This document shows positions 803-28,043 of a stretch of 28,652 bases of DNA, piece by piece. The notes under the pieces were generated by a model. The model did no database searches. It was not told where the DNA came from and saw only the letters and a program-made list of their open reading frames with translations. How positions within the stretch are numbered: the stretch's first letter is position 1; each line of letters starts with the position of its first letter. A program made the position numbers and the translations under genes. The DNA lies in the IMG/VR virus record IMGVR_UViG_3300024264_003058, positions 1 through 28,652 of that record; one strand, 5' to 3'. Origin of the DNA: a virus.

Positions 803-807
803 ATTTT

Positions 808-1632: not shown

Positions 1633-1635
1633 TAT

Positions 1636-5209: not shown

Positions 5210-5213
5210 ATTC

Positions 5214-6433: not shown

Positions 6434-6434
6434 A

Positions 6435-6875: not shown

Positions 6876-6878
6876 ATT

Positions 6879-9604: not shown

Positions 9605-9616
9605 TCGATTTGTTAT

Positions 9617-9805
9617 TTATAGTTCGATGTTAGTTTGATTGTTGATTTTTTTCCTAAAATCTTCGTCCGTAAGATACAAAAATATTGATCGATCAGCAAG
9701 TTTTTGGAAAGAAAATTTACGTCTTACACATTCAACTTTAAAATCATCAAATAGATTGCTTTGTACTTTAACACTCGTTAGTGTCATTTTTGCTTTATTG
9801 GCCAT
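9617..9805 (-). CDS. Small ribbon-helix-helix-like protein
   Basis: The 62-aa basic protein has a short strand (SVKVQSNLFDDF) followed by two predicted helices (KVECVRRKFSFQKLADRSIFLYLTD), the order expected of ribbon-helix-helix/Arc-type DNA-binding proteins. Proteins of this size and pattern recur in T4-like marine phages. It would bind DNA as a dimer and could act as a transcription regulator. It follows a 45-nt intergenic gap holding a TATAAT hexamer on the same strand, so it may head a transcription unit with the glycosyltransferase block, 12 nt downstream. The family call rests on pattern only. Confidence 0.65.
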   Translation of the reverse strand: MANKAKMTLTSVKVQSNLFDDFKVECVRRKFSFQKLADRSIFLYLTDEDFRKKINNQTNIEL

Positions 9806-9830
9806 AATTTTTATTTTTTAATAACGTTTA

Positions 9831-9836
9831 ATTATA
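9831..9836 (-). promoter_or_regulatory. Candidate -10 element
   Basis: On the minus strand this gap reads ATGTATAAT, an exact sigma70-type TATAAT hexamer with an upstream TG, 25 nt before the ATG of the ribbon-helix-helix gene at 9805. No good -35 is visible at 16-18 nt. In such AT-rich DNA the match could be chance, but it lies in one of the few true intergenic gaps (9806-9850). Confidence 0.4.
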
Positions 9837-9850
9837 CATATATCAGAATA

Positions 9851-10822
9851 TCAATAAATTATCCCTTTGTCACATAGTTCCTTTTCTTCCTTATAAGGAC
9901 AAAAAGTACAAGTCCATTTAGACGGTGTTGCTGGGTATTCTTTATCTTTATGTTTACCTGTAGAACTAAAACACTCTGATATAAAGTCGTTTATTGCTGT
10001 TTTAGCTCTTCCTAATTTTATTTTTCCACTTGGTGGTACAAATTGCTGTACTCTATATGCTTGGTATGGTGACATAATATTGTCATCATCTATGTCTAAT
10101 ACCTTCCTTTTAAGTATAAAAAATTCAATCTCAATTTTATCTAAAGGTATCCCGTATTGTTCAGAGAAAAATTGTTTGTAAAGTAATAATTGGTATTGTT
10201 TATCCTCATCTTTTTTAGCATAATCATTCCACCCCTTAGTACTGGTTTTAATGTCGATTATCTTAAATGTCTCTGTTGCTTCGTGGTATGTGACAACATC
10301 AAGATATCCCATATATAACACGTTATTTAACATTTTATTTGGTGCTATTACAATAGGTATTTCACAACCAACTAAATATGTACCTTTTTTACTAAAATAT
10401 CTGCTACGTTTTTTCTTAAACCATTCTAAAATAGCAATCCCATCTTCAAAAAATTCCCTCATTTCAGTTGCATCTGAGAAGTGAGAATTATTATTTTTTT
10501 TATATTGTGCTTGATATTCAGAGATATAAGCGTTTTGGAAATGGTCTTTTATATCTATTTCTCTATCTGCAGCAGCAAATGATTTTTCATATGCTACATC
10601 TAAATAGTGTTGCATTGATTCGTGTACAGCAGTTCCAAATACAGTATGAATTGAAGATGTAAAACGTTTGATTTTATCCTTATATTGTAACTTCCACCTT
10701 TGAGGGCACCCTCTAAATATACTCATTTGGGAAAAAGAAACATTTTTCTGGAATGCGTAATTCAATGGTGGGGGAGGATTATTTCTAATCTCCTTAACTA
10801 TATTAGGAATTTTTTTAGCCAA
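9851..10822 (-). CDS. PD-(D/E)XK nuclease, Cas4/RecB-like with C-terminal cysteine cluster
   Basis: A 323-aa protein with the RecB/Cas4 nuclease pattern: H67 in GTAVHESM, E154, D175 in GYLD, then IIDIKTS with D190 and K192, followed by a QYQLLLYK helix (the QhxxY motif). C39 in the N-terminal FRGCPQRW and C305, C308 and C317 near the C-terminus are spaced as the four cysteines of the Fe-S clasp in AddB and Cas4. It is likely a DNA exonuclease in recombination or host DNA breakdown. The start is TTG at 10822, one base after the upstream stop; the next in-frame ATG (residue 33) would lose the first cysteine's flank. No CRISPR array accompanies it. Confidence 0.85.
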   Translation of the reverse strand: MAKKIPNIVKEIRNNPPPPLNYAFQKNVSFSQMSIFRGCPQRWKLQYKDKIKRFTSSIHTVFGTAVHESMQHYLDVAYEKSFAAADREIDIKDHFQNAYISEYQAQYKKNNNSHFSDATEMREFFEDGIAILEWFKKKRSRYFSKKGTYLVGCEIPIVIAPNKMLNNVLYMGYLDVVTYHEATETFKIIDIKTSTKGWNDYAKKDEDKQYQLLLYKQFFSEQYGIPLDKIEIEFFILKRKVLDIDDDNIMSPYQAYRVQQFVPPSGKIKLGRAKTAINDFISECFSSTGKHKDKEYPATPSKWTCTFCPYKEEKELCDKGIIY

Positions 10823-13390: not shown

Positions 13391-15022
13391 TTACATTAAT
13401 GATCCAGTTTGAACATCAGAGGCTATTTTTAATTTTTCCTCAATTGATTTTTTATCTTGAGCCAAAGTACATTCTGTTAATAATACAGTACCTGCTACTG
13501 ATGCGGCATTTAGTAACGCTAATCTACAAACTTTAGTTGGATCTATCACGCCTTTTTCTCTAAAATTAACAATATCTCCTGAATCAACATCAACACCCGC
13601 CCAATGATCATTTCCTGAATTAATTAAGTTATCGGCTAGTATTTGACCTTTGACTTCATCATAACCAGCATTAACTAAAATCTGATTAAATGGTTTTGAA
13701 CAAGCAGTTTTTACAATATTTGCTCCAATTGAATCGGCTTCAATACCTGAGGAAGCATATAATAATGCTACTCCACCCCCTGGAACGATACCTTCATCTA
13801 ATGCTGCTTTTGTAGCATGTAGAGCATCATCTACTCTATCTTTTTTCTCTAACATTTCTGTTTCAGTGTTACCACCTACATGAACAATTGCTACTCCTCC
13901 GACGAATTTTGATAATCGGTTTTGGAGTTGTTCTGTTTCGTACGGGGTCGTGGCTTTCTCGATTTGCGATTGTAGCTCTTCAACACGTGCTTCAATTGAT
14001 TCAGCTTCTCCTTTTCCATCTACTATTGTTGTTTGTTCTTTAGTTACTGTTGCTTTTCTTGCTTCACCAAACCATTCCCAAGAGAATTTGTCTAGTTTCA
14101 TTCCTTTTTGTTTATCAAATACTTTACCACCAGTTGTGATTGCAATATCTTCTAAAACTAATTTACGTCTATCACCAAAATCAGGTGCTTTTACAGCACA
14201 CACATTAATTGTACCTCTCATTTTATTTACAATCAAAGTAGCTAATGCTTCGTTATCAATATCTTCTGCTATAATTAATAATGATTTACCTTGAGCTGAT
14301 ACTGCTTCTAATATTGGTAGTAATTCTTTTACTGAACTTAATCTATGATCCATAATTAAAATAGCTGGATTATCTAATATACTTTGCATTGAACCATTAT
14401 CGGTTACAAAATAAGGTGATTTAAATCCTCTATCAAATTGCATTCCTTCTACAGTTTCAAGATAAGTGTCTCCAGTTTTAGATTCTTCAACGTGTACTAC
14501 ACCTTCTAAACCTACTTTTTCAATTGCTTTAGCAATTAATTTACCTGTTTCTTCATCATTATTAGATGATATTGTTGCAATTTGTTCTAATTGGTTTTCA
14601 CCTGATATATCTTCAGCTATATTACTTTTAAGATTTTCTATAACTTTTTTAACTGTTTTATCAATATCTCTTTTAATTTGGACAGCATTTTCACCATTAT
14701 CTAATGCTTGTAGACCATTTTTAATCATCTCTCTAGCTAATAATGTTGATGTTGTTGTACCATCACCTGCTTTATCTGCTGTTCTCATTGCTGCTTGTCT
14801 AAGCAATAATTGCCCTAAATGCTCTTCAGGATCAGATGTTAAAAATGATTTCGCAACTGTTACACCATCTTTAGTTGATTGTGGTGCTTCATTGTGCCCT
14901 CTAAATATAACAACATTTCTACCATTTGGTCCTAATGTTGACACTACTGCGTCTGCAAGTTTATCAATACCTCTTAATAATCCTTGTCTTGCTTCTTTAC
15001 CGTACTTTACTTGATTTTCCAT
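13391..15022 (-). CDS. groEL: Phage-encoded GroEL chaperonin
   Basis: The 543-aa protein aligns over essentially the whole GroEL family length (E. coli 548). It has LGPNGRNVVI near residue 30, the ATP-site GDGTTTSTLLA around 86-96, the apical region with TVEGMQFDRGFKSPYF, and the intermediate/equatorial VGGNTETEM and VPGGGVALLYA segments, all hallmarks of type I chaperonins. The C-terminal GGM repeat of bacterial GroEL is absent; it ends in QTGSLM. It would fold phage or host proteins in a cage capped by GroES, whose gene directly precedes it (start and stop share one base). It is probably needed for capsid or glycan-enzyme folding during infection. Confidence 0.96.
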   Translation of the reverse strand: MENQVKYGKEARQGLLRGIDKLADAVVSTLGPNGRNVVIFRGHNEAPQSTKDGVTVAKSFLTSDPEEHLGQLLLRQAAMRTADKAGDGTTTSTLLAREMIKNGLQALDNGENAVQIKRDIDKTVKKVIENLKSNIAEDISGENQLEQIATISSNNDEETGKLIAKAIEKVGLEGVVHVEESKTGDTYLETVEGMQFDRGFKSPYFVTDNGSMQSILDNPAILIMDHRLSSVKELLPILEAVSAQGKSLLIIAEDIDNEALATLIVNKMRGTINVCAVKAPDFGDRRKLVLEDIAITTGGKVFDKQKGMKLDKFSWEWFGEARKATVTKEQTTIVDGKGEAESIEARVEELQSQIEKATTPYETEQLQNRLSKFVGGVAIVHVGGNTETEMLEKKDRVDDALHATKAALDEGIVPGGGVALLYASSGIEADSIGANIVKTACSKPFNQILVNAGYDEVKGQILADNLINSGNDHWAGVDVDSGDIVNFREKGVIDPTKVCRLALLNAASVAGTVLLTECTLAQDKKSIEEKLKIASDVQTGSLM

Positions 15023-15387
15023 TAAATATCTGTTAAATTTTCTTTATCTTGTTCACTTATTTCTGTTGATTCTAAAGCATCTTCTATACTCACTTCTCGA
15101 TCCATTCTTGCAAGGACATTATTTTCAGGTCCTACAAGATAATCTTCACCATTAAATGGTAATTTTGTGAATCCTTGAGTTGGTAGAACTACTCTATCAC
15201 CTACTTTTAGTTGTGTTGGGATTTTATCACCTGTTAAGGTAAAATTACCATCTCCAACAGAAACTACTTCACCAAAAGTATTTGTTTCTTTACCCATATC
15301 TGGAACAATAATGTTCCCATATGTTTCTTCTTCAGCCTCTATAGGCTTAACTATCACTGCGTTATACAGTGCGACTAACTTGCTCAT
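15022..15387 (-). CDS. groES: Phage GroES-type co-chaperonin
   Basis: A 121-aa GroES-like protein. It starts with the strand LYNAVIVKPI, has a mobile-loop region around residues 18-35 (EEETYGNIIVPDMGKET), the FGEVVSVGDG strand, and the LKVGDRVVLP and GEDYLVGPENNVLA barrel strands at the positions expected for the seven-bladed lid. It is longer than bacterial GroES (about 95-97 aa) because of an acidic C-terminal tail of about 25 residues, and shorter-looped than T4 gp31 in overall plan. It overlaps the 107-aa gene upstream by 26 nt and groEL downstream by one base, making a coupled groES-groEL pair. Confidence 0.93.
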   Translation of the reverse strand: MSKLVALYNAVIVKPIEAEEETYGNIIVPDMGKETNTFGEVVSVGDGNFTLTGDKIPTQLKVGDRVVLPTQGFTKLPFNGEDYLVGPENNVLARMDREVSIEDALESTEISEQDKENLTDI

Positions 15388-16275: not shown

Positions 16276-16902
16276 TTATTTCTCTGTATCAAAGAAAAAT
16301 ACTTGTGTTAATCTTGCTGTATCTATATTATGACCAAAGTAAGTAGGAGCTGCATGAATTAATTTTGCATCCCATATTACTAAACGATTAAAAATATTAG
16401 CTGCATGATCAATTCTTACATATGGGGTTGGATCAACCCATGTATCTCCAGCAAACGCTGCTCCAATATTGTCTTCTCCACCTCTTAATCCTGTTTCTTT
16501 ATGTGCATAAAATGAAGTACCTGCTTCATAAGGAGCATCTATGTTACCATACCAAGCTGCTGCCCAAGTTTGACTATCACAATGATAAACAGGTCTAAAA
16601 TCTGCTTTATGACTTTGGAATCTAGCATTCATACCATGTTCTTCCCATACAGTAATTTTTTCACCTATTGTTTCTTCAAATTTTTCTTTTACACCTTTAA
16701 AAAAGAATTGTTTTCTTGTTCTTAAACCTTCGAATCCTTCATCATCAAAAAACCATTGATTAATAGCAAAATTTCTTAGTTCTTTAGGGTTAGTATAGAA
16801 ATCATCTATTATGAATATTCTATGTTTATGGTTATCATTTAATTGGAAATTGTCAGTGTGTACTACACCCCATTCTCCATTTGGGTCTGAATCTTTATAC
16901 AT
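16276..16902 (-). CDS. DUF6445-type putative 2OG-Fe(II) oxygenase
   Basis: The 208-aa protein is a paralogue of the one at 236-802. It has IIDDFYTNPKELR at about residues 31-43, iron ligands H107, D109 and H183, and R197 for 2-oxoglutarate. Shared blocks include GTSFYAHKETG, the FNRLVIWDAKLIHAAPTYFG region and the C-terminal VFFFDTEK. A short N-terminal extension (DPNGEWGVVHTDN) is not in the paralogue. It lies between gp45 (2-nt gap) and the hsp20 leader, away from the sugar genes, so the two copies may have different substrates or act on a common polymer. Confidence 0.75.
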   Translation of the reverse strand: MYKDSDPNGEWGVVHTDNFQLNDNHKHRIFIIDDFYTNPKELRNFAINQWFFDDEGFEGLRTRKQFFFKGVKEKFEETIGEKITVWEEHGMNARFQSHKADFRPVYHCDSQTWAAAWYGNIDAPYEAGTSFYAHKETGLRGGEDNIGAAFAGDTWVDPTPYVRIDHAANIFNRLVIWDAKLIHAAPTYFGHNIDTARLTQVFFFDTEK

Positions 16903-16904
16903 AA

Positions 16905-17639
16905 TTAATCTATTATTTGTTCGTTTCTTGTTATAAAATATATACTTGATATATCTTCATTATCAAATGTAAATTTAGCTAATCCTTTTGTTGATAAATA
17001 TAGCTTAGTTGAATCACTGTCTTTATTTACATTTAATATTTCTTTAAATCTTTGAGAATCAAATGGAAGTTGCAACATTAAGAAATCATCACTTATATCC
17101 CCCTCAATTTGATACGTTACTTTACTTGAAAAATCTGTATTATCCCCAAATGTAAATTGACATACTGTTTTATCATCTAAATCCTTTATACCTTCTAGTA
17201 CTAATGTGCTATATTCAGATAATGCATTTTTTGCTTTTAGTAAATTGTCTATATCATCTCTGCTTAAATCCAATTCCATATCCCATTCAACATCTTTAAA
17301 CCAATTAATTTTTGGTATAACTTCTGGGGAGGATAATGAATAACTTAATTCAAAATTAGCATCATTAATTAAAAGTTTTCTAGATAGTTCGCCTTGTGAT
17401 TCTGTCCCTAATAATAAATCACCACTAGTTATGCCTATTAGTTTTTGAAGTTTGGAACTATCATATACTCCTAATACCGCGTTTTCTATGGGAAAATCGT
17501 TGATATAAACACCAGCAGCAACTCCTCCACTACCTACGTGAACAGCTAATTTATTGTCTTTTATAACCCATTTAGCTTGATTAAATTCATTCAAATAGTA
17601 TTTTGAAATGAACGATTGTAACTTATTTTTATTTATCAT
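16905..17639 (-). CDS. 45: Sliding clamp gp45
   Basis: The 244-aa product matches T4-type gp45 (228 aa) in length and pattern: a two-domain, beta-rich, acidic protein with no catalytic motif, as expected for one subunit of the trimeric processivity ring. Recognisable parts are the early strand-helix region (INKNKLQSFISKYYLNEFNQ, N-terminal 20 residues), a central acidic linker and the C-terminal strands ending YFITRN. It tethers the polymerase to DNA and, in T4, also activates late transcription. It follows polymerase part B by 3 nt. In T4 gene 45 precedes 44-62 and 43 comes last; here both polymerase pieces precede gp45. Confidence 0.85.
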   Translation of the reverse strand: MINKNKLQSFISKYYLNEFNQAKWVIKDNKLAVHVGSGGVAAGVYINDFPIENAVLGVYDSSKLQKLIGITSGDLLLGTESQGELSRKLLINDANFELSYSLSSPEVIPKINWFKDVEWDMELDLSRDDIDNLLKAKNALSEYSTLVLEGIKDLDDKTVCQFTFGDNTDFSSKVTYQIEGDISDDFLMLQLPFDSQRFKEILNVNKDSDSTKLYLSTKGLAKFTFDNEDISSIYFITRNEQIID

Positions 17640-17642
17640 AAC

Positions 17643-18587
17643 TTATATTTCTATTGTTTCAAATGCTGTGTTATATGGGTTTAAATCTAAACTCCATTGT
17701 AAATCATTAAAAAATCCTTCTAATTTATTAAGTAAAATGGATTCAAATACGTTTTTTTTATCTGCAAACATTTCTAAAAAATCAACTATTTTTGTTGGCA
17801 TATCATAATCTAAAAATGCTAATGCTTCTATTTTATAGGGATTATCTTTTAAATATATCCATTTAACTTTGTCTGATTTAGTAATTTGATTATGACTTTT
17901 ATCTAATTTCCAGAATCTAAGTAAATCATTATATCGTATAGCAGCTTTTACAGCAGCAGGTGCTCCCTTTTTTATTCCACTAAACATTTCTCCTGCTCTA
18001 GCCCTAACACCTACGTAATCATCATATTTTTTTACTGAGGTGGGGTTACCTAATTTTACAATTGGTATACCACCACTCAATATTTTTTTCTTCATTTCTT
18101 TTATTTGATCTAAAATGTCTTCTCGTTTAGCACCTTTTAATACTTGAGTTAATAAATCACTAAAAAATGCTCCTAATACTGGTGGGAAATTTGCTTTTTT
18201 AAATTCCAAACCTTTTACATCAAGGATATCTTTTTCAATACCTTCTTGTTTAGTAATCCATTGTGCATATCTTCTATTTGCTCTAAAATAAGCTGATCTA
18301 ATAACACATTCGGTTTTCATTTCTAAGAAATGCTCTTGATCATTAGGTACATTAAAACAATCTTCAGCTAATGATGTATAATAATCATTAATTTCATGTT
18401 CAAACTGGAATGCCACTTGTTCAGCATTATTGTCCTTAATTTCATTACTCATTTCATCATAATCATTCCATAAGAATCTTAGTAATGGAGCAGCATCAAT
18501 ATAATTAGAATCTGTATCAACGTAAGCACAGTAATTAATTTTACCGGGTTCACAAATAAATTCTGGGGTTTCTTGTAATTGTTTCAT
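17643..18587 (-). CDS. 43: DNA polymerase gp43, C-terminal part (motif C, thumb)
   Basis: The 314-aa protein carries the family-B polymerase motif C as YVDTDS with catalytic D24 and D26, then the second half of the palm and the thumb, including the AAVKAAIRYNDLL and WIYLKDNPY segments typical of T4-like polymerases, and a C-terminal tail (NKLEGFFNDLQWSLD) where gp43 binds the clamp. It has no exonuclease, motif A or motif B; these are in the ORF at 20022-21818. The two together total 912 aa, close to T4 gp43 (898). ATG 18587 is preceded in frame by a stop (TAA) 21 nt upstream, so it is a true separate ORF. It must join part A to form an active enzyme. Confidence 0.93.
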   Translation of the reverse strand: MKQLQETPEFICEPGKINYCAYVDTDSNYIDAAPLLRFLWNDYDEMSNEIKDNNAEQVAFQFEHEINDYYTSLAEDCFNVPNDQEHFLEMKTECVIRSAYFRANRRYAQWITKQEGIEKDILDVKGLEFKKANFPPVLGAFFSDLLTQVLKGAKREDILDQIKEMKKKILSGGIPIVKLGNPTSVKKYDDYVGVRARAGEMFSGIKKGAPAAVKAAIRYNDLLRFWKLDKSHNQITKSDKVKWIYLKDNPYKIEALAFLDYDMPTKIVDFLEMFADKKNVFESILLNKLEGFFNDLQWSLDLNPYNTAFETIEI

Positions 18588-18625
18588 CGACGTGAATATA
18601 ATTATAATTTATTGGGAATCCAAAT

Positions 18626-19393
18626 TTATTTTAAAAGACATATATTTTCAAATTTAACATTTTTAAATCCAAACTTACCCCAATCAAAGTAATTTTCTAC
18701 TTTATCACATTCAATTTTATAGAATTCTTTTAAAAAGGGACTACTATTTTTATTTTGCATTATTTTTTTACCATCTAAGGCTCTAAAAAATTCAGTTGGA
18801 TGTTCAAACGAAATTAAATCCATTTTACCATATTTGCCTGCGTAACCAACCATTGAAGCTTTATCATCTCTACCTAAAAATTTATTTATATGGATTCCTA
18901 AACATCCAGGACCACAAAAATTCATTATATTTTCAGCTGGTAATTCTTCTTTGTTTACAATTTCAACTATGTGATCAATACAACTTTTTAAAATAGGGTG
19001 TCCTGGTGTACTACCTATAAAAGCATTTGCTACATTATGATATTCTAAATCACCTAAATTTAAATCTGTTGCTGCAACGAATTCAGTATCTTCATTTATA
19101 AACATATTTAATGATCCTAGACATATAGAATCAATATCAATATAAAACCCTCCATAAACATATAATATACAATATCTCCATAAATCAGATTTAAATGCCC
19201 CGGGAAGTATTCTATTATAAGCATCATATACTTCTCCTTGGAAGAAATGTCTCATAAAAATTTGCCTATCATTAGCATCAAAAAACTGGTAATCGTACTC
19301 TGGGTTTTCTAATCTCCAATCATCAACAATATATTGAAATTGAAGTTCAAAATTTCCATGCTCAAATGTTTGAAATATTCTTTTAGGTATCAT
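18626..19393 (-). CDS. DXD-type glycosyltransferase inserted between polymerase halves
   Basis: A 255-aa transferase of the Gly_transf_sug (capsular/mannosyltransferase OCH1-like) type. MIPKRIFQTFEHG at the N-terminus and LWRYCILYVYGGFYIDIDS at residues 71-89 are the signatures; D86-x-D88 binds the metal-nucleotide. The start is set at ATG 19393 because MIPKxIxQT is the usual N-terminus; a longer frame from 19417 would deepen the overlap with the gene before it from 11 to 35 nt. It would transfer a hexose to a glycan or other acceptor. It is out of place: other sugar genes are 9 kb away, and it sits with two small genes inside the split polymerase. Confidence 0.88.
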   Translation of the reverse strand: MIPKRIFQTFEHGNFELQFQYIVDDWRLENPEYDYQFFDANDRQIFMRHFFQGEVYDAYNRILPGAFKSDLWRYCILYVYGGFYIDIDSICLGSLNMFINEDTEFVAATDLNLGDLEYHNVANAFIGSTPGHPILKSCIDHIVEIVNKEELPAENIMNFCGPGCLGIHINKFLGRDDKASMVGYAGKYGKMDLISFEHPTEFFRALDGKKIMQNKNSSPFLKEFYKIECDKVENYFDWGKFGFKNVKFENICLLK

Positions 19394-19754
19394 ATTCTTT
19401 TGCTTCAAAAACTTCACTCCCAGTTATTAAATTAATATCATTTTTAAAACTATTTCTTTGTTCGTTTAGTTTAAATATTTGTTTAGAAGCATTTATAAAT
19501 TCTTTATCTCTTAAAGTTCCACTTCTTACTTTATTTTCTAAATCCCATAATGCACCATTTATTCTAGCCAATTCCAAATATAGTACTTGTAAAGTTGAAT
19601 CGTTTTGAGTAAATAAACTTATACATTTTTTATTTAATATCAAAAATTCTTTTTCCACTACAGCTAAATTAGCTGCATCTTTCATTCTTAATTTTTTTAA
19701 TTCAAGAATTGAAATTCTATCTAATAATTCCCCATTTGATATCTTTATATTCAT
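19383..19754 (-). CDS. DUF6165-like protein
   Basis: From ATG 19754 (one base after the upstream stop) the 123-aa protein reads MNIKISNGELLDRISILELKK, then a long helical region with KEFLILNKKC, LYLELARINGALWDLENKVR and FKLNEQRNSFKNDIN. This matches my recollection of DUF6165, a small helical family often found next to glycosyltransferases in bacteria and phages. The function is unknown. Its end overlaps the DXD glycosyltransferase by 11 nt, so the two probably moved together as a pair. A longer frame from 19772 would lie within the 89-aa gene and lacks support. Confidence 0.65.
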   Translation of the reverse strand: MNIKISNGELLDRISILELKKLRMKDAANLAVVEKEFLILNKKCISLFTQNDSTLQVLYLELARINGALWDLENKVRSGTLRDKEFINASKQIFKLNEQRNSFKNDINLITGSEVFEAKEYDT

Positions 19755-19755
19755 C

Positions 19756-20025
19756 TTAAAATGTTCTTTCACCTGGAAGTGGTGGTACTGTTACTGGTTT
19801 ATTCCCCGCTGAATCTATATCTGTTCTTTCTGCAACTGTAACTCTAAACTTATTACCATTAACTTTAAACTCACCTCCTTGTTTTAACATTTTTTTAAAG
19901 AATTTTTCTTGTGTTTCACTCCATTCTTCACTTAGTTTAATTACTTCGTCTTTATGTAAGGGTTCCTTACTAATACCTAAGTATATGGTTTGGTTAGCTC
20001 TAATAGATTGTCTTTTTAATGTCAT
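19756..20025 (-). CDS. Small unknown protein overlapping polymerase part A
   Basis: An 89-aa basic protein, with a helical middle (KLSEEWSETQEKFFKKMLKQG) and two beta strands (GEFKVNGNKFRVTVAER) before a proline-rich tail. No nuclease motif (LAGLIDADG, GIY-YIG, HNH) and no intein block can be seen, so it is not a recognisable homing enzyme. Its ATG overlaps the TGA of polymerase part A (ATGA), which shows translational coupling. Function unknown. Confidence 0.65.
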   Translation of the reverse strand: MTLKRQSIRANQTIYLGISKEPLHKDEVIKLSEEWSETQEKFFKKMLKQGGEFKVNGNKFRVTVAERTDIDSAGNKPVTVPPLPGERTF

Positions 20026-21818
20026 ATTTTTAGTTTTGAGATGAATTTATCTTTTGGGATTTCCCCTTCCATTATTTTACTATAGTACTTGTTAGCACAT
20101 AAAGCACTTTCTTGGATAATTCTGTGACCTGATAATGTAATTGCTTCACTTAAAATAGAATGATTCATACCATATCTAAAACTTGGAACAGCTGTAGCAC
20201 CATATAAACTATTAAGTAAAATTTTCATTGTATACTGCATTAAGTAATAATACTTACCCTTTTCAGTGTCTTTAGCTTTATATGCTTTTTTCATTAAGTT
20301 TTTATACTCAACTCTTTCATTAAACCACTTTTCTAAAATAACAGATAATGTTGATTTTTTAGAACTTGAGAAAAATGATCCATTAGCAGCAACTCTATAT
20401 TTTCCTTTTTCAATCGCTTTAACAATTTTCCCTACTTCCCATCTTTCATGTAGCATTTTAGTAGTTTCAAATACAACGCTAGTTTTAGGATCCATTGCCT
20501 TTAAATCATTTAATCCTAAACGATTATTTCTATCATCAGCATCAATAATTCTTCCAACATAAGTTTCTCTCCCAATATTAATAGTTCTAATAATAGCTGG
20601 GTATAGTGAAGTTAAATCTAAATCAAACATATTTTCATATAAACCTGCTTGGGGACAAAATAACCAACCACCAGCATAACCATCTTTCTTTTGAGGGTTC
20701 ATTTCTCTGTTTGGTGGCACAATACCTTGACCTAATAAGTAAGCTGATATTGCTCCATCTTGAGTTGTAGTGTTAGCATATACTTCACTATAGTTATGTT
20801 TTCCTTTATGTGAGATATTTCTAGTTAATGCTAAGTATTCTAATTTTTTATCTAGTTCTACTAATATTTCAACATCACGAAAGTTATAATCAACAAACTT
20901 TTGAATATCGTCTCTATATAAATCATTTAGATTACCATCATATTCAATCTTCTTTATACCAACATATTTTTCTCCAATAGCATCTAATTTCCAACTTGGT
21001 TCATCTTGCCAACCATATTTTTTATGTAATCTCATATAATCCAGAGATTCAATACCTTTAATATCAACAAAAAATCCAGTTCTTGTAAAAAATGAATTTT
21101 GGTCTGCTCTAGCCATTACAGGTTGGTTAACATAGCCATAAAGAGGAGACATTTGGTCTGCACGATCTTTTCCACAAACATTAACAATTCTCCAATACAA
21201 ATAAGGCATATCAAAGTTATCACTATTATACCCTATTAAAGAATCTGGTCTTGAATCTATAATTATTTGTACCCAACAATCAAGTAATTCTTTTTCAGTT
21301 CTAAAAGTGGCTACCTGTTGTTTAGCATTGGGATCAACTTTAACTATACCCTTAGGATCTAAAACTATACAACCCCATTTATCAGCTTGTTTATGATAAA
21401 ATGCTATTGATGTAACTGTTTTATTGGCTTTAGCAATTTCATCTGGTTCAAATGAGTCTAACATTTCACACTCAATATCAAAAAACATTTCTTGATGTCC
21501 AGTAGATGGTTCATCATTAGTTCCATATTCGTTTATTAGAAATTTTTGATGAATAGCATTACTACTCCTCATATCTGCCCAATAAAGTCCTGGTGTGTTT
21601 TTATGTTTATTTTTACCTCTAGTATAATAGAAATCAAGTGTAGGTTTTAAAGATCCCCCATCTATAGATTTCATAGTTTCTTCTGATGGATCACATTCTA
21701 TGTAAGCAAAGTCTTCGTACAATATTTTTTTATGTTCACCATCTGATTCCCACAGATGCATTTCCCATGTATTTTTTAACCCTTGTACTTTATCTCCTTG
21801 ATAACACTTTTTATACAT
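20022..21818 (-). CDS. 43: DNA polymerase gp43, N-terminal part (exonuclease, motifs A and B)
   Basis: The 598-aa product holds the 3'-5' proofreading exonuclease, with Exo I FFDIECE (D114, E116), Exo II GYNSDNFD (196-203) and Exo III YNFRD (311-315). It also holds the first half of the family-B polymerase domain, with motif A DLTSLYP (D401) and motif B KILLNSLYG (532-540). It ends soon after motif B, before motif C; the end reads IPKDKFISKLKI and then TGA. Motif C is supplied by the ORF at 17643-18587. Gene 43 splits near this point are known in some T4-like phages (for example Aeromonas phages). It starts right after mazG-like gene's stop and overlaps the 89-aa gene by 4 nt. Confidence 0.94.
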   Translation of the reverse strand: MYKKCYQGDKVQGLKNTWEMHLWESDGEHKKILYEDFAYIECDPSEETMKSIDGGSLKPTLDFYYTRGKNKHKNTPGLYWADMRSSNAIHQKFLINEYGTNDEPSTGHQEMFFDIECEMLDSFEPDEIAKANKTVTSIAFYHKQADKWGCIVLDPKGIVKVDPNAKQQVATFRTEKELLDCWVQIIIDSRPDSLIGYNSDNFDMPYLYWRIVNVCGKDRADQMSPLYGYVNQPVMARADQNSFFTRTGFFVDIKGIESLDYMRLHKKYGWQDEPSWKLDAIGEKYVGIKKIEYDGNLNDLYRDDIQKFVDYNFRDVEILVELDKKLEYLALTRNISHKGKHNYSEVYANTTTQDGAISAYLLGQGIVPPNREMNPQKKDGYAGGWLFCPQAGLYENMFDLDLTSLYPAIIRTINIGRETYVGRIIDADDRNNRLGLNDLKAMDPKTSVVFETTKMLHERWEVGKIVKAIEKGKYRVAANGSFFSSSKKSTLSVILEKWFNERVEYKNLMKKAYKAKDTEKGKYYYLMQYTMKILLNSLYGATAVPSFRYGMNHSILSEAITLSGHRIIQESALCANKYYSKIMEGEIPKDKFISKLKI

Positions 21819-22382
21819 TTATATAACAGTTCCTGGTTGGTGAAATTTTTGTAATTCATCTCCTGTAAAAAATTGTTGGAGATCTGGTTTGAAGTAATTA
21901 ATATTTTTCATTACTTTTCTGTCTCTCGTTCTATATACAATATACCGTCCTTCCTCAAGTTTTTCAAAATGGCAGGCCTCACCTTGTTCCTTACTTCGTT
22001 GGCTGACACTTTGTATGGCCTCTTCTTCAGTTTTACAAGCTTTTGACATATTACTTGCTTGTACTTCTTGATACGCTGGCCATATCTTATCCTTAAGGCC
22101 GTGTAACATAGTACCGTTCCCAAGGGAAACATAAGCAATATCGCACAAAGCGTCCAAAACTTCCACAATGTCGCCTCGTTCGCAAGCTTCTCTATATTCT
22201 TCGAGTTCTTCAAGGATGAAATCGTATACAAATTTCCACTCTTTTTCTTCTGGGATTGTTGGTTCATAATTATTTGGTTTACCAAATGTGGCGTTAAATG
22301 TTTCTACCTCGCTAACAAATGGTACTTCGTTAACCCATACTGGTAGTTCTTCTTCTTTAAATAATTTTAATTGTTTACTCAT
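21819..22382 (-). CDS. MazG-like nucleotide pyrophosphohydrolase
   Basis: The 187-aa protein has an all-alpha NTP pyrophosphatase core: E58/E59 and E62 in the EELEEYREA helix, then E74, D77 and D81 in VEVLDALCDIAYV, the paired metal-binding helices of the MazG/HisE-like superfamily. These enzymes hydrolyse (d)NTPs to NMP and pyrophosphate. Marine T4-like phages often carry a MazG-like gene and it is thought to adjust nucleotide pools. A C-terminal basic/aromatic region (about residues 130-187) may bind substrate. It overlaps the phosphoribosyltransferase gene by 8 nt and abuts the polymerase start, a logical place for a nucleotide-pool enzyme. Confidence 0.8.
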   Translation of the reverse strand: MSKQLKLFKEEELPVWVNEVPFVSEVETFNATFGKPNNYEPTIPEEKEWKFVYDFILEELEEYREACERGDIVEVLDALCDIAYVSLGNGTMLHGLKDKIWPAYQEVQASNMSKACKTEEEAIQSVSQRSKEQGEACHFEKLEEGRYIVYRTRDRKVMKNINYFKPDLQQFFTGDELQKFHQPGTVI

Positions 22383-22922: not shown

Positions 22923-23615
22923 TTATATGTTATGTCCTCCGTTATTTATTTTTAAACTATCAAAAAATTCTTTTCTAGCTAAATTAGTATTATCTTTAAA
23001 TACACCTGATGCTTTAGTTGTAACCATTGCTGCACCTTGATGTTTAACACCTCTACAGCTAACACAATTATGTGTTCCAACTATAGTAACAATTACACCT
23101 TTATTACCTTCAGTAATTTTATCTACTGCATTGTGGATAGCTGATGTTAATTGTTCTTGTATTGCTCCTCTTCTACCAAATAGCTCTACAATTCGGTTTA
23201 ATTTGGATAAACCAATTACTCTACCTTCATCTCCTGCTATATAACCGATGTGAACAACACCTCCAATGGTTTGATGATGGTGTGAACACATTGATGTTAA
23301 TGGAATATTTCTTTCAATAACAATACCATCATAACCATCTGATGGAAATGATGTTATGGGGGACATTTCAGTGTATCTACCTGCCCATAAATCGTTAACA
23401 TAGGCTTTTGCTACACGTTTAGGTGTTTCAGCTGAATTTGGGTCTCTTCTCCAATCACATTTTAATTCATCTAAAAACAGACCAAATTTATGGGCTGCTT
23501 TTTCTATCATATCTTTCTTTTGGGCATCATTAAAAGGGAATCCTGGCGCGACACCATTCGCAAACCCCTCTTGTACTACTTCTAATTCTTGGTGTAATTT
23601 TCTACGATTGCTCAT
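22923..23615 (-). CDS. folE: GTP cyclohydrolase I
   Basis: FolE opens GTP to dihydroneopterin triphosphate, the first step towards folate and, with QueD, towards preQ0. The 230-aa protein (E. coli 222) has the ETPKRVAKAY helix (63-72) and ERNIPLTSMCSHHHQTIGG with zinc ligand C110 and H113. It also has the RVIGLSKLNRIVELFGRR substrate region and GTHNCVSCRGVKHQGA (180-195) with the second zinc cysteine C184 and R188. All expected active-site residues are seen. In this genome it completes the four-enzyme preQ0 route with queD, queE and queC. It is separated from queE by an oxygenase gene and a 45-aa ORF. Confidence 0.95.
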   Translation of the reverse strand: MSNRRKLHQELEVVQEGFANGVAPGFPFNDAQKKDMIEKAAHKFGLFLDELKCDWRRDPNSAETPKRVAKAYVNDLWAGRYTEMSPITSFPSDGYDGIVIERNIPLTSMCSHHHQTIGGVVHIGYIAGDEGRVIGLSKLNRIVELFGRRGAIQEQLTSAIHNAVDKITEGNKGVIVTIVGTHNCVSCRGVKHQGAAMVTTKASGVFKDNTNLARKEFFDSLKINNGGHNI

Positions 23616-23739
23616 TTATATAACTTTTTAATTTATCTATTAATACTAACACATCATCTGGGTCCATTGTAATAGCACAGCATGTGTTTACATTTTCTTC
23701 TATATCATCTAATATACGAAGGGCTTCTAACTTATCCAA
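23602..23739 (-). CDS. Small ORF (45 aa, TTG start) between oxygenase and folE
   Basis: A 45-codon frame fills what would otherwise be a 126-nt gap. It starts at TTG 23739, two bases after the stop of the oxygenase gene, and ends 14 nt inside folE. The peptide is acidic and helical (LDKLEALRILDDIEENVN, then DPDDVLVLIDKLKSYINE) with a CC pair at residues 19-20. Phase with both neighbours, the lack of another use for the gap and protein-like composition support it; the lack of an ATG and of clear relatives argues for caution. Confidence 0.5.
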   Translation of the reverse strand: MDKLEALRILDDIEENVNTCCAITMDPDDVLVLIDKLKSYINEQS

Positions 23740-23741
23740 AC

Positions 23742-24359
23742 CTATTTATTATAAAGTAACCAAGTTGTTAAAATATACTTATCATCAGATTTTGGCATGT
23801 ATCCTTTATGAATATAAGGCCAACTAGCAGGATGAATAATCAATTTTCCAGCTTCAGGTTTAACTTTAAAGAAATCATTTGTATCTTCATCTTTAAATAA
23901 AAATCCTGTTTCTCCTCCTTCTTCAACATCATTTAAATAGAAAATAAAAACAAACATTCTATTTGTAGTATTTAAATCTTCTTTTTCAGTATGCCATGTG
24001 TTGTAATGACCTGAATTTTGGTCATATTTTTGAATTTGAAGTAATGGATAAAATGTTTTACCATTTACTATTCTATGATGATTGAATTCATTACTATGTG
24101 GGAAATTTTCCAAATAATGGTTACTTAAATAATCATTAAATCTATCCATTACTAGATTAGAAAGGTCTTTATTGCTTTGATGGTTAGATTCTAATAAATT
24201 AAAATCATTACTTTTTTTATACTCAGATTCTCCATCACCACTTTTTCCTGTATATGTAGTACCTTCTACTATCGCGTTTTCAAATTGTTGGATTAATAAT
24301 GCACATTCTTCTTTACTAAAGGCATTATTATAAACTCCTATTGTGTCTTTTAATTTCAT
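23742..24359 (-). CDS. Prolyl 4-hydroxylase-like 2OG-Fe(II) oxygenase
   Basis: The 205-aa protein has the prolyl-4-hydroxylase layout. QIQKYDQNSGHYNTWHTEKE gives H123 and E125 as the first metal ligands (H-x-E rather than the usual H-x-D). The FIFYLNDVEEGGETGF strand-turn is diagnostic. PEAGKLIIHP and H184 (third ligand) follow, with K194 as the probable 2-oxoglutarate lysine. It likely hydroxylates a peptide or another substrate in the cytoplasm. It starts just after queE (3-nt gap). This is a different subfamily from the DUF6445-type and the 26072 proteins. Confidence 0.85.
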   Translation of the reverse strand: MKLKDTIGVYNNAFSKEECALLIQQFENAIVEGTTYTGKSGDGESEYKKSNDFNLLESNHQSNKDLSNLVMDRFNDYLSNHYLENFPHSNEFNHHRIVNGKTFYPLLQIQKYDQNSGHYNTWHTEKEDLNTTNRMFVFIFYLNDVEEGGETGFLFKDEDTNDFFKVKPEAGKLIIHPASWPYIHKGYMPKSDDKYILTTWLLYNK

Positions 24360-24362
24360 ATT

Positions 24363-25223
24363 TTATACTTCTCTTTTATCTTCAAATGCAATGATATGGG
24401 GTCTCCATGTCATTCTATAACCATTATCTCTAACCCAATCAAATAATACAGGATAAGATTTAAATAATGCTTCTCTGGAATCTCCAGCAGGCATAAACCA
24501 AACTTTTTCAGGTTTAACATCTAATATAGAAATACATTCCATAATTTCTGCTAAAGCTCCTTCATCTTTACCATCCCATACTGGTTTAATATGATAATCT
24601 GAGTGGTAAGCAATTGATTGTTTTATTGATTCATAATTAAGTCTAAGCTTATTATGACGTTTTACCATTCTTTCGTCCGTGATTCCACCTTGAGGAGTTT
24701 TGACTCCGACCACAGGGATCGAATTCGAGAATTTAGGAGATATAGATAATAAATTGATCGGATAATCAGTGGGTAAAAAATGTGACCCCTCAGTTTCGAT
24801 AGTAATAAATATCTTTTTTTCATGTGCAAAATGTGTTAATTCATTTACTAAAGCTGGGTGCATAGTAGGTGAACCACCTGTAAGCATCATTTCTTTAATA
24901 TGGGGATTCTCCTCATATGCTTTAATAATGTCGTTAAAATTAAAATGTCCTTTTTCTGGATGGATACTTGTATACCAACTATCACACCAACCACCTTCAC
25001 CAAAATAACATCGGTGAGTGCATCCTGTTGTTCTAATTACTACTGTGGGGTATCCTGCTCTAGAGCCTTCGGATTGAACTGCAGTGTAAATTTCTACAAT
25101 TGGGAGGTTTTTTTCGTAGTCCTCAATACGTTTCAATTGTTTGTGCATATTGTTAATTTTTTTAAGTGGTTTTTCATTCACTAATAACTTATTATTCGCA
25201 GTAATAGGCTGCATTTTTACCAT
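24363..25223 (-). CDS. queE: 7-carboxy-7-deazaguanine synthase (radical SAM)
   Basis: QueE converts 6-carboxytetrahydropterin to 7-carboxy-7-deazaguanine. The 286-aa product has IVEIYTAVQSEGSRAG (42-57), the family's opening. A cysteine motif of C68-x3-C72-x7-C80 replaces the standard C-x3-C-x2-C of radical SAM enzymes; the cluster loop is thus 5 residues longer. TGGSPTMHP (115-123) stands for the usual GGEP SAM motif. The C-terminal part ends with a WFMPAGDS segment. It overlaps queD by 32 nt if started at 25223; ATG at 25214 or 25148 are alternatives, and the 40-odd residues before the conserved core are of uncertain length. Confidence 0.92.
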   Translation of the reverse strand: MVKMQPITANNKLLVNEKPLKKINNMHKQLKRIEDYEKNLPIVEIYTAVQSEGSRAGYPTVVIRTTGCTHRCYFGEGGWCDSWYTSIHPEKGHFNFNDIIKAYEENPHIKEMMLTGGSPTMHPALVNELTHFAHEKKIFITIETEGSHFLPTDYPINLLSISPKFSNSIPVVGVKTPQGGITDERMVKRHNKLRLNYESIKQSIAYHSDYHIKPVWDGKDEGALAEIMECISILDVKPEKVWFMPAGDSREALFKSYPVLFDWVRDNGYRMTWRPHIIAFEDKREV

Positions 25224-25656
25224 GTTCCATGAATTTAACTTTAGTAACTCTAACCCTATTATTAGTTTCAGTCTTTACAAATTCATTTAACTTATTATAA
25301 ATATATTCTGAAAATTTTTCAGCGCCAGTAGCTGGAATTACTCTTACTTGAGCTACACCTACTGTATCCATTTGTTGAAATGCTCTTAATTCAGGATCAT
25401 CCTCAGCTATAATCATAGTATGATCAAACATATAATCCATCCAAGCTTTTGGTTGTTTCCCATCAATTAAGGTTTTAGCTCGTTTCATTCCTCCAAAGTC
25501 CCAAACCCAATTTCTATCATCTAAGTCACCTTCGAAATAAACTTTAAATGAAATTCCATAACCATGCACAAATCTACAATGTGTTGTTTCTGCTTTCCAT
25601 TGACGAAATACTGTGCTAAATCCGTCAAATACTTTGCTTGATTGAAATTTACCCAT
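25192..25656 (-). CDS. queD: 6-carboxy-5,6,7,8-tetrahydropterin synthase
   Basis: QueD makes 6-carboxytetrahydropterin from dihydroneopterin triphosphate, the second step to preQ0. The 154-aa protein keeps the catalytic-loop pattern C27-x3-H31-G-Y33, where the usual zinc motif HGH has become HGY. H26 just before the cysteine may supply a ligand. A FDHTM segment (77-81) and the C-terminal MEHGKNAAYYCE match the family. T-fold enzymes of this kind assemble as hexamers. It overlaps thioredoxin upstream by 8 nt and queE downstream by 32 nt. Confidence 0.9.
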   Translation of the reverse strand: MGKFQSSKVFDGFSTVFRQWKAETTHCRFVHGYGISFKVYFEGDLDDRNWVWDFGGMKRAKTLIDGKQPKAWMDYMFDHTMIIAEDDPELRAFQQMDTVGVAQVRVIPATGAEKFSEYIYNKLNEFVKTETNNRVRVTKVKFMEHGKNAAYYCE

Positions 25657-25888
25657 TATACCATGCTTTAATTTCTGTTATTGGTTTATTACCAACTATT
25701 CTATCAACTTCGTTTCCACTAGCATCTACTTTAACTATAGTAGGAACATTTCTAATTCCATACTTAGTTGATAATTCAGTATCACTATCAACATTTACTT
25801 TTGTATAAGGCAATCCACTTTTTTCCATTTGTGGTCCTAATACCTTACAAGGTCCGCACCAAGGTGCACTAAAATAATATAATTTCAT
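25649..25888 (-). CDS. Thioredoxin/glutaredoxin-like protein
   Basis: A short (79 aa) thioredoxin-fold protein with the WCGPC redox site (W10, C11, C14), a cis-proline in NVPTIV (residues 47-52) and a C-terminal helix. Bacterial thioredoxins have about 105-110 residues; the N-terminal strand and helix are missing here, as in T4 glutaredoxin (nrdC) and NrdH. It would donate electrons to ribonucleotide reductase or other enzymes in the cytoplasm; no reductase gene is in this window. Its 3' end overlaps queD by 8 nt. Confidence 0.9.
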   Translation of the reverse strand: MKLYYFSAPWCGPCKVLGPQMEKSGLPYTKVNVDSDTELSTKYGIRNVPTIVKVDASGNEVDRIVGNKPITEIKAWYNG

Positions 25889-25907
25889 AATTTATTGTTT
25901 TTTTTAT

Positions 25908-26075
25908 TTATACTAATTCTTCTACTATTCCAATTATCTCCGATAATATAAGAACAATAGTTGCAATCTCCAAGCTAAATGGAAGAAAAGCGTAACCTGC
26001 TATACGTATCGCGGATTTAATAAAACTTATTTTTTGATGCATATAAGCATCTGGGAGTTCTTGTTTTTCTTTCAT
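25908..26075 (-). CDS. Small membrane protein (55 aa)
   Basis: A frame of 55 codons starting at ATG 26075, whose ATGA overlaps the stop of the oxygenase gene at 26072. The N-terminal part is charged (MKEKQELPDAYMHQK), and the C-terminal 35 residues are hydrophobic (AIRIAGYAFLPF...ATIVLILSEIIGIV) with room for one or two membrane passes. No signal peptide or known family is recognised. The tight coupling and the composition make a real gene likely; function unknown. Confidence 0.65.
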   Translation of the reverse strand: MKEKQELPDAYMHQKISFIKSAIRIAGYAFLPFSLEIATIVLILSEIIGIVEELV

Positions 26076-26734
26076 GGTGTAATATTATAATTTACTACTA
26101 TTCGTTTTTTTGAATTAATAGGAGGACATCCAGCATGTAGTAAATTTTGTTTAAATAAAACTAAACGCCCCCTTTTATTTTTTATAACTTTTTTAACACT
26201 TATCTCTTCATTATTTCTAATAGGTTCATTTCCCTTTTCATTAAAAATAACTGTATCACCATCACTTTCATTAACAAAATAAATTCCTGTCCATCCTCCA
26301 CCTTTTTCTATATCAACATGAGGTACATAACAAGATCCTTTATTTTCAATTACTTCTTGAAGATTAAAGTTTGTTTTAATTCTTTGAATATCATATGGAG
26401 AATTTAATGCACTTAAAGGTGTACACATTGTTTTTTGAAAATTTGGGTTTTTACTCCACCAAACCCAACCACTATAAACTTCATAACATTCTCCACACAT
26501 CAAACCAGGTCTACTCTGATTCCAAAATTTATTATCTTTAATTTTTATTTTACCATCTTTAGGAGCATCAAAAGCTAAAGGTCTAGAATCTCCTAAGTCA
26601 GATAAATTAGGTTTTTCAAAAACACCCCCATAAGAAGATCTCCACTTAAAAAAAGTATTGACAATAATTTCTTTTTCAATTTTATCTTGCTGTTCTATAG
26701 AAAGAAAATCATCAAAGATTAGTATATCATCCAT
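26072..26734 (-). CDS. Putative 2OG-Fe(II) oxygenase
   Basis: From the ATG at 26734 (220 aa) the protein begins MDDILIFDDFLS, the usual opening of this group. A longer frame exists only from a TTG at 26747-26749 and is not needed. The iron ligands are H139, D141 and H200, with R211 as 2-oxoglutarate ligand. The middle holds WTGIYFVNESDGDTVIFNE, like other phage and bacterial sugar- or protein-modifying oxygenases. It overlaps the small membrane protein gene before it by 8 nt and the 55-aa gene after it by 4 nt. The substrate is unknown. Confidence 0.8.
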   Translation of the reverse strand: MDDILIFDDFLSIEQQDKIEKEIIVNTFFKWRSSYGGVFEKPNLSDLGDSRPLAFDAPKDGKIKIKDNKFWNQSRPGLMCGECYEVYSGWVWWSKNPNFQKTMCTPLSALNSPYDIQRIKTNFNLQEVIENKGSCYVPHVDIEKGGGWTGIYFVNESDGDTVIFNEKGNEPIRNNEEISVKKVIKNKRGRLVLFKQNLLHAGCPPINSKKRIVVNYNITP

Positions 26735-26912
26735 TTTTCTTATAATCAATTATAAATCCTATTGCTACTAAGACGTTTAATCCTATGCTAGCAATTATTT
26801 CGTGAATATCCTGGTATGTGCTAATGCTTAAGTGAACATGACCTACTACCCAAAATGGAATAGCCATTTGTTGGCTGTACCAAATTAAAGCGAATGTTAA
26901 AAACTTTTTCAT
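26727..26912 (-). CDS. Small membrane protein (61 aa)
   Basis: From ATG 26912 the product reads MKKFLTFALIWYSQQMAIPFWVVG, with a hydrophobic first segment, then a polar stretch with HVHLSISTYQDIHE, and a second hydrophobic stretch (ASIGLNVLVAIGFIID). It is therefore probably a two-pass inner-membrane protein. A longer frame beginning at 26984 runs into the tRNA-Gln gene and is rejected as the start. It overlaps the oxygenase gene after it by 8 nt. No function recognised. Confidence 0.7.
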   Translation of the reverse strand: MKKFLTFALIWYSQQMAIPFWVVGHVHLSISTYQDIHEIIASIGLNVLVAIGFIIDYKKNG

Positions 26913-26926
26913 ATCATAACTCTTTG

Positions 26927-26999
26927 TTATCCCGACAGGTCTCGAACCTATACTCTTCTGGACCAAAACCAGACGTGTTACCAATTACACCACGGGATA
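26927..26999 (-). tRNA. tRNA-Gln (anticodon TTG)
   Basis: A full cloverleaf can be folded by eye: a 7-bp acceptor stem (TATCCCG/CGGGATA), a D-arm GTG...CAC, a 5-bp anticodon stem (TCTGG/CCAGA) with loop TTTTGGT giving anticodon TTG, and a 5-bp T-stem with TTCGAGA loop (one G-U pair). The discriminator is A; CCA is not encoded. It would read CAA (and perhaps CAG) codons. It sits 3 nt from tRNA-Ala and 14 nt before the small membrane gene. Confidence 0.92.
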
Positions 27000-27002
27000 T
27001 TG

Positions 27003-27076
<74 letters not shown>

Positions 27077-27080
27077 TCCT

Positions 27081-27227
27081 TTAGATTGATCGGTTTCGTC
27101 TTCGACCATCCCAATAAACCTTTTTGCTATTACCTAGCATACTTAGTTTAGCTACCTTGTGATTAAACGTGTTACGAGCAGTATTCAACTGCTCGTTACC
27201 GTTATTTGATTGTTGATTTGTTGTCAT
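27081..27227 (-). CDS. Small basic protein (48 aa)
   Basis: A frame from ATG 27227 to TAA 27081 encodes 48 aa. The N-terminal half is glutamine- and asparagine-rich (MTTNQQSNNGNEQ) and the C-terminal half is basic (FNHKVAKLSMLGNSKKVYWDGRRRNRSI), suggesting nucleic-acid binding, though no known domain is seen. It fills the gap between queC and the tRNA genes. A strong hairpin lies inside it at 27174-27196, so the region might instead be an RNA leader. Confidence 0.5.
   Translation of the reverse strand: MTTNQQSNNGNEQLNTARNTFNHKVAKLSMLGNSKKVYWDGRRRNRSI
27171..27199. repeat. Strong inverted repeat within the 48-aa ORF
   Basis: A perfect 9-bp stem (ACGAGCAGT/ACTGCTCGT, 27174-27182 and 27188-27196) with a 5-nt loop. 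Beyond one mismatch the stem gains two more pairs, to 27171 and 27199. No U-tract follows on either strand, so it is not a classic terminator. It could slow translation, serve as an RNA processing site ahead of the tRNAs, or be a protein-binding palindrome. Confidence 0.65.
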
Positions 27228-27254
27228 TACTATAGTTTATTAATTTATATATTC

Positions 27255-28043
27255 CTATACGTATTCAGCAAGGACTTTCTCAACATGAGCTTTCGCTACT
27301 TCATAATCAACTTCACCACTTTCGTCTTCATATTGGACAGGATCTTTCCTACCCAAAGCAATAAATGCCTCAATTCGCTCAACAGAAGAAGCAGACTTAT
27401 AATCACTATTCCCACTAGGGTAAGGCTTATAACTAGTATTAGTTCTAGAATAGACTTCATTGAATTCAATTTTTAATATTTCACATAATTTTTCTCCATC
27501 TTGTAAAATACCAAACTTATCAGTATCTAAATAAGGAGTAAAGTAACCTACTCTATCTGCATCCCAATTGCCAATTCTAAAAGCTGCATCATCTGCATCT
27601 CTAAATTCTTGTCTACAATCAGGGTAAACAGCATGATCTCCAGCATGAATACCTAAAGCAATATCACAAACGTCTTCTGTTTTATTTGCTACAGATAATG
27701 CTACTGCTTGTGTAATAGAAGCAAACATTTTATTCCTGTTAGGAACAACTGTTTCTTTCATATTATCTTGCTCATAATGTCCTTCTGGTACATCATCACC
27801 ACCTTGAACTAAAGCTGAGTCTAGTAAATCTACTAATCCATCTAATTTAATTTGACGGTAATTTACTTTGTGACCTTTACTTGCAAGGTAATCAATTAAT
27901 TGTTGAGCTCTTTCAAGTTCAACTCTATGTTTTTGACCATAGTCAAATGAAATACCTGTTACAGTATCATATTTCTCGATAGCTCTTAACAATAAGGTGC
28001 TACTATCCATTCCACCACTTAAACTTACTACACAATGTGCCAT
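27255..28043 (-). CDS. queC: 7-cyano-7-deazaguanine synthase (zinc cysteines replaced)
   Basis: QueC turns 7-carboxy-7-deazaguanine into preQ0 with ATP and ammonia. The 262-aa protein has the N-type ATP pyrophosphatase PP-loop SLSGGMDSST (7-16), FDYGQKH (33-39) and the VVPNRNKMF and GIHAGDHAVYPDCR segments, all typical of QueC. The C-terminal zinc site of other QueC proteins, which has four cysteines before and within the CxxCxxCxER block, is altered: the segment reads TNTSY...DYKSASSVERIEAF, with no cysteine. The fold may hold without zinc, or the enzyme may use another metal or partner. Its stop overlaps a TACGTATAGG motif. Confidence 0.93.
   Translation of the reverse strand: MAHCVVSLSGGMDSSTLLLRAIEKYDTVTGISFDYGQKHRVELERAQQLIDYLASKGHKVNYRQIKLDGLVDLLDSALVQGGDDVPEGHYEQDNMKETVVPNRNKMFASITQAVALSVANKTEDVCDIALGIHAGDHAVYPDCRQEFRDADDAAFRIGNWDADRVGYFTPYLDTDKFGILQDGEKLCEILKIEFNEVYSRTNTSYKPYPSGNSDYKSASSVERIEAFIALGRKDPVQYEDESGEVDYEVAKAHVEKVLAEYV

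Follow-up and report, generated by a model that had tools for sequence, protein, structure and literature searches.

A predicted two-part T4-type DNA polymerase with exchangeable genes at its split site in a clade of marine phages

Organization of the split polymerase locus

The 28,652-nucleotide (nt) stretch analysed here in its whole length (the window) is an incomplete contig, IMG/VR record IMGVR_UViG_3300024264_003058, of an AT-rich T4-like phage (GC content, 0.30); the minus strand carries its main genes. In this window, the T4-type family-B DNA polymerase (PolB; gene 43 product, gp43) appears to be encoded by two adjacent open reading frames (ORFs), part A and part B, with three small genes between them (Table 1). 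Both ORFs are intact, and their lengths sum to 912 amino acids (aa). Part A contains FFDIE at residue 112, GYNSDNFDMPYL at 196, YNFRDVEIL at 311, DLTSLYPAI at 401, and KILLNSLYG at 532, whereas part B contains YVDTDS at 22 and RRYAQW at 105. The exonuclease motifs and the polymerase motifs A, B, and C of a T4-type family-B polymerase are therefore found across A and B jointly, and the catalytic carboxylates are divided by the break, with D401 of motif A in part A and D24/D26 of motif C in part B.

A single DNA-polymerase profile, phrog_262 (856 positions), was matched by both ORFs; part A spanned positions 20-567 (E value, 1e-102) and part B positions 563-842 (E value, 8e-37). PF03104 and PF00136 matched on part A, which also aligned to residues 190-609 of RB69 gp43 (E value, 2e-36). 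Since this alignment ends at residue 609, and the motif C carboxylates of RB69 gp43 are D621 and D623, the break is placed in the short loop just before motif C. Part B alone had no significant sequence match in the PDB but does align with one-piece homologues. A preliminary description of this DNA had assigned the exonuclease and motifs A and B to one ORF and motif C and the thumb to the other; the ORFs, motifs, and phrog_262 all agree, confirming at the sequence level that A and B together represent a single T4-type family-B DNA polymerase in two halves.

Its further claim, that sugar-related genes lie inside a split between motifs B and C, was borne out; the insert contains two genes with Pfam matches and the 89-aa ORF, here called U89. 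The insert genes had also been described as coupled to part A by short overlaps. The 4-nt overlap between part A and U89 was found, whereas the start of the DUF6165-type gene had to be corrected (most likely ATG 19754 rather than GTG 19772) and that of the glycosyltransferase gene is ambiguous. The glycosyltransferase gene is separated from part B by 38 nt. U89 had no family match and no reliable PHROG, and its structure model (predicted local distance difference test score [pLDDT], 70) had no structural match in BFVD or the PDB. No homing endonuclease was found in the gap of the window.

Table 1. Features of the split polymerase locus and its flanks in the window
Feature	Position	Strand	Evidence or remark
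Polymerase part A, 598 aa: 3'-5' exonuclease, palm motif A, fingers, motif B	20022..21818	-	ORF, profiles, motifs
Polymerase part B, 314 aa: 16-20 aa conserved head, motif C (YVDTDS), remaining palm, thumb, C-terminus	17643..18587	-	ORF, profile, motifs
Cargo interval between the polymerase halves, approximately 1.4 kb, three small genes	18588..20021	-	
U89, 89-aa gene	19756..20025	-	Start overlaps stop of part A by 4 nt; commonest gap gene
DUF6165-type gene (PF19662)	19383..19754	-	Pfam match
DXD glycosyltransferase gene (Gly_transf_sug, PF04488)	18626..19417	-	Pfam match; alternative starts GTG 19417 or ATG 19393
MazG-like pyrophosphohydrolase gene	21819..22382	-	Directly upstream of part A; conserved neighbour
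244-aa gene directly downstream of part B	16905..17639	-	B-side junction used as fixed control

Conservation of the split and of its ends

Scanning IMG/VR with part B alone matched 459 stretches, 456 of which were relatives. The split was found in well over 100 contigs of many metagenomes, within one marine T4-like clade and at the same loop preceding motif C. A and B were separate ORFs in all 75 B-anchored loci with both ends readable; the A-B gap across these loci ranged from -4 (a 4-nt overlap) to 4214 nt, and the start residue of part B was constant (MK-L--TP--IC...NYCAYVDTDS). In a tree computed without the junction columns, the window's clade was monophyletic (support of 100 in the Shimodaira-Hasegawa-like approximate likelihood ratio test) and the polymerase was split in 29/29 rows. 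More distant relatives mostly have a single ORF of approximately 830-890 aa with a short loop at the break point; the tree requires at least five separate origins of a split. Our literature search, which covered few subscription papers, found no published report of a split between motifs B and C in marine phages.

Both halves are maintained by selection. Pairwise ratios of nonsynonymous to synonymous substitution rates (dN/dS) between close relatives were 0.05-0.12 for A and B, indicating strong purifying selection. In twelve split-clade records (39-119 kb), part B was matched once per record and part A no more than once (not at all in two fragments), and the records contained no second polymerase matching A or B.

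The head of part B (MKxLxxTPxxIC...NYCAY) was highly conserved, with T7, P8, C12, N18, and C20-Y22 invariant in 35 sequences, and the divergent branch L261-L271 carries a variant form of it. The tail of part A is variable and nearly absent in two loci (L255 and L272). The break ends had been regarded in the preliminary description as added interface tails; the clade-wide conservation of the part B head fits this idea, whereas the variability of the part A tail does not. In addition, the nearest one-piece polymerases (L257 and L260) already have approximately 16 extra residues in the junction loop compared with T4. These two may belong to an unsplit sister lineage in which the loop already existed, or they may represent re-fused halves, both options being compatible with the approximately unbiased (AU) test (p 0.185). 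The L257 polymerase, at positions 3800-6466 of that locus, is one-piece and close to the split clade and has the extended junction loop, as in L260.

Gene content of the gap

The relatives included, as the preliminary description had proposed to look for, loci with the same split site and different cargo; 26 gene arrangements were found in the gap over our first two samples, and several more came from a third, wider sample. U89 was a nearly constant occupant in the first two samples. Of the approximately 30 arrangements in total, most combine U89 with glycan or nucleotide-sugar genes, and some include HNH or GIY-YIG endonucleases. The cargo included DUF6165, MannoseP_isomer cupin, cytidylyltransferase, DegT aminotransferase, FkbM and other methyltransferase genes, as well as GNAT, formyltransferase, NAD epimerase, and PALP enzyme genes. 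In the third sample, which consisted mostly of relatives of a deeper branch, the gap was empty in 29 of 81 split loci. The glycosyltransferase gene was limited in the gap to the immediate subclade of the window. Since the split is clade-wide, including the 29 empty-gap loci, and the glycosyltransferase is confined to one subclade, the glycosyltransferase cassette was not the cause of the split, contrary to the preliminary description.

The A-B gap was the most variable of the five junctions compared in this region. Of 42 non-redundant loci, 41 had an A-B gap of 250 nt or more, compared with 2/35 for the MazG-A junction, 6/42 for the junction between B and its downstream gene, and 4/28 and 0/12 for two other neighbours. 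Among phage pairs with B 94-97% identical, the cargo arrangement was the same in 10%, whereas the length of the B-downstream junction was the same in 91%; over the range of 94-99.5% B identity, the cargo usually differed while the B-downstream junction was fixed. U89, DUF6165, and the glycosyltransferase diverged more than the flanking halves between close phages. For example, the halves of the window and L003 were 95% and 92% identical, compared with 72% for U89 and 67% for the glycosyltransferase.

U89 itself lay within the polymerase gap in 77 of 78 U89-anchored loci. U89 was also seen elsewhere: in the sister clade, L020 carries U89 just downstream of GroEL and not in the polymerase gap, and L230 has a homologue (6001-6270) away from the polymerase, preceded by an FkbM-like methyltransferase gene and followed by queuosine genes.

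Interpretation and rival explanations

Taken together, these data make it likely that the phages of this clade have a constitutive two-subunit replicative family-B polymerase whose split site is a hotspot of cargo exchange, the glycosyltransferase cassette being one such cargo. Several points weigh against this interpretation. The AlphaFold model of part B alone, built with 35 relatives, was poor (pLDDT, 52.6), and the assembly and activity of A and B are suggested by selection. Cargo exchange by recombination is suggested by divergence contrasts, which match what would be expected from cassette exchange. Some cargo families had no family match, and the label "sugar" fits only part of the cargo. 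Finally, only the best 80 loci of each scan were retained, and the cargo frequencies thus depend on the query.

The reading frame is broken relative to T4, as would be expected if the polymerase had decayed or if the contig were an assembly chimera, and the preliminary description had named a full-length gp43 elsewhere in the genome, with decayed parts here, as its refutation. The purifying selection on both halves, their intact motifs, and the single polymerase in records of up to 119 kb argue strongly against decay. The junctions of the window recurred at 99-100% identity in independent metagenomes (L001 and L002), which excludes the assembly error that had been raised as a concern; we consider the probability of either event to be negligible. 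The halves could instead be rejoined into one polypeptide through an intron, a split intein, or a programmed frameshift, given that relatives carry inteins at the same site and that the frames overlap in several clade members. However, no Rfam intron was detected in the window at the gathering threshold, and neither A nor B of the window contains an intein domain, their break ends being short tails and not intein halves. Part B has its own start codon and conserved head throughout the clade, and complete genes totalling up to 4.2 kb can separate the halves. Rejoining is therefore highly improbable.

For the origin of the split, two explanations were weighed. A homing endonuclease or a fractured intein may have invaded the motif-C loop, broken gene 43, and later been lost, with other cargo taking its place; we give this an even chance. 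The same loop has been struck independently in several relatives. In the sister clade, the polymerases of L009, L016, and L021 are split there, with a GIY-YIG-type gene after A (assigned to the family directly in L009 and through similarity in L021). L044 (5032-7770) is split, with a NUMOD3 endonuclease-like gene between the parts and an A tail resembling an intein block (VLENGKTIEL...SELTVNDDVLI); the first residues of its B part are in another frame. In L065/L066, an in-frame intein of 164 aa sits at motif C. LR756508.1 (L161, a 484-kb phage; 2364-5417 and 8423-10288) is likewise split at the motif-C loop, other ORFs separating the parts, and also has inteins of 327 aa in A near motif B and 312 aa in B at motif C, giving three disruptions of one gene. 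This recurrence and the multiple split origins on the tree favour an origin by invasion, as do the two endonuclease families in gaps of the window's own clade, namely an HNH endonuclease in L206/L207/L340 and a GIY-YIG gene in L389-L391. The GIY-YIG protein of L389 shares 49% identity with that of L009, where the gene interrupts a sister polymerase that is otherwise one-piece, again at this loop. There is also a precedent in the seg gene beside the split gene 43 of Aeromonas phage 25 (PMC2988022). On the other hand, no intein remnant was found in A or B of the window, and the endonuclease carriers of its clade are nested, in the wider tree, among endonuclease-free relatives and therefore look like later visitors. 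A reading of L206/L207, with their HNH endonuclease, as the deepest split lineage, which would have argued for an endonuclease origin, was dropped because the wider sample nested both among such relatives. Simple fission, in which an extended loop acquired a stop codon and, overlapping it by 4 nt (ATGA), a new start codon, the cargo entering between the two cistrons only later, seems to us possible but a little short of even. It agrees with the empty-gap loci of the wider sample, several of which have a 4-nt overlap, and the extended loop of L257/L260 would tolerate such a break. However, the empty gaps occur at scattered positions in the tree and may reflect secondary loss of cargo, and L257/L260 may themselves be re-fusions, given the AU result.

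Whatever its origin, the two-subunit polymerase with an exchangeable gap could operate as follows. Neither half would polymerise alone; A and B would be translated from one polycistronic message and would assemble through the palm, aided by the conserved head of part B. Cargo may pass from phage to phage by homologous recombination, in which the conserved halves, and often U89, would serve as homology arms; cleavage of this loop by a GIY-YIG or HNH endonuclease may sometimes initiate the exchange. We also raise, tentatively and with more doubt than confidence, the possibility that the split has been selected for flexibility and not just tolerated, the gap being a site where co-infecting phages swap glycan-modifying and other genes through the homology arms of the gene halves while endonucleases visit the same loop. 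If this is true, a replication gene would act as a landing platform for the turnover of accessory genes.

Split replication enzymes of phages have usually been single curiosities ascribed to a resident homing endonuclease, whereas the split described here is fixed across a large and widely sampled marine clade. The relatives form a natural series, including one-piece, split-empty, split-with-cargo, and split-with-endonuclease forms, with which it can now be tested how an essential enzyme tolerates a break at its active site and how glycan-modifying genes are replaced so rapidly in phages.

Genomic context and host

The 244-aa gene 3' of part B had no Pfam match and a weak match to phrog_12062. 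A match to the gp23 major capsid protein was found in 2 of 7 records, which supports the assignment to T4-like phages. Shine-Dalgarno-like sequences precede only 2 of the 32 genes of the window, and a scarcity of such motifs is typical of Bacteroidota and their phages. Seven matching contigs were found in prokaryote assemblies, of which four were binned with Flavobacteriaceae or Flavobacteriales and one with Pelagibacter. The host of the phage is likely flavobacterial. Pelagibacter phage HTVC008M was considered as a close relative and ruled out, its polymerase being one-piece and distant.

Elsewhere in the window, a large glycan cluster lies at 800-9604 (a UDP-glucose dehydrogenase-like gene, a nucleotide-sugar epimerase gene, several glycosyltransferase genes, and a methyltransferase gene), and queuosine/deazapurine genes (GTP cyclohydrolase, QueE-like, QueD-like, and QueC-like) together with a thioredoxin gene lie at 22923-28043, a region that includes two tRNAs (26927-27076). 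Phage-encoded GroEL and GroES are located at 13391-15387, and DUF6445 genes occur twice (236-802 and 16276-16902).

Comparison with known systems

The nearest precedent is the split gp43 of Aeromonas phages 25 and 44RR, in which the polymerase is encoded by adjacent cistrons, 43A and 43B, separated by a homing endonuclease gene in phage 25 and by an untranslated spacer in 44RR (Petrov et al. 2010, reviewed in PMC2988022). 43A and 43B of phage 25 co-purify, with polymerase activity (PMC2988022). The window likewise encodes a T4-type PolB gene 43 as two adjacent cistrons, but the position of the break differs. The 43A protein of phage 25 has only 498 aa, compared with 598 aa for part A of the window, which includes motif B; the phage 25 break therefore lies upstream of motif B, whereas that of the window lies between motifs B and C. 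Moreover, the gap of the window holds metabolic genes in place of an endonuclease or untranslated spacer, and the split has become fixed throughout a large clade, with interchangeable cargo in its gap.

NrdA of phage Aeh1 (mobE) and the T4 topoisomerase gp39/gp60 (mobA) are further enzymes that an insertion between cistrons has divided into two polypeptides (PMC2988022). They resemble the polymerase of the window in being essential replication enzymes built from two polypeptides, but their inserted gene is held to be an endonuclease, whereas the gap of the window has metabolic genes instead. Dassa et al. in 2009 (cited in PMC10448857) reportedly described fractured genes that carry split inteins together with a free-standing endonuclease. 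Like these, the polymerase of the window comes from phage metagenomic DNA and its gene is broken at a conserved loop, with an endonuclease between the parts in some relatives; unlike them, it lacks intein halves, and its parts must associate without splicing. Among archaea, PolB1 of Methanothermobacter is a family-B polymerase made of two chains, the smaller of which bears motif C, as in the window; to our knowledge, this distant enzyme has no cargo system.

In HEG-islands (HEG, homing endonuclease gene), endonucleases adjoin essential genes, and the neighbouring genes have been proposed to travel as cargo (PMC10448857). The gap of the window differs in lacking an endonuclease, with single endonucleases in the gaps of some relatives, and the arrangement is reversed: in HEG-islands, endonucleases flank essential-gene cargo, whereas here the halves of an essential gene flank swappable accessory genes, in most cases with no endonuclease among them.

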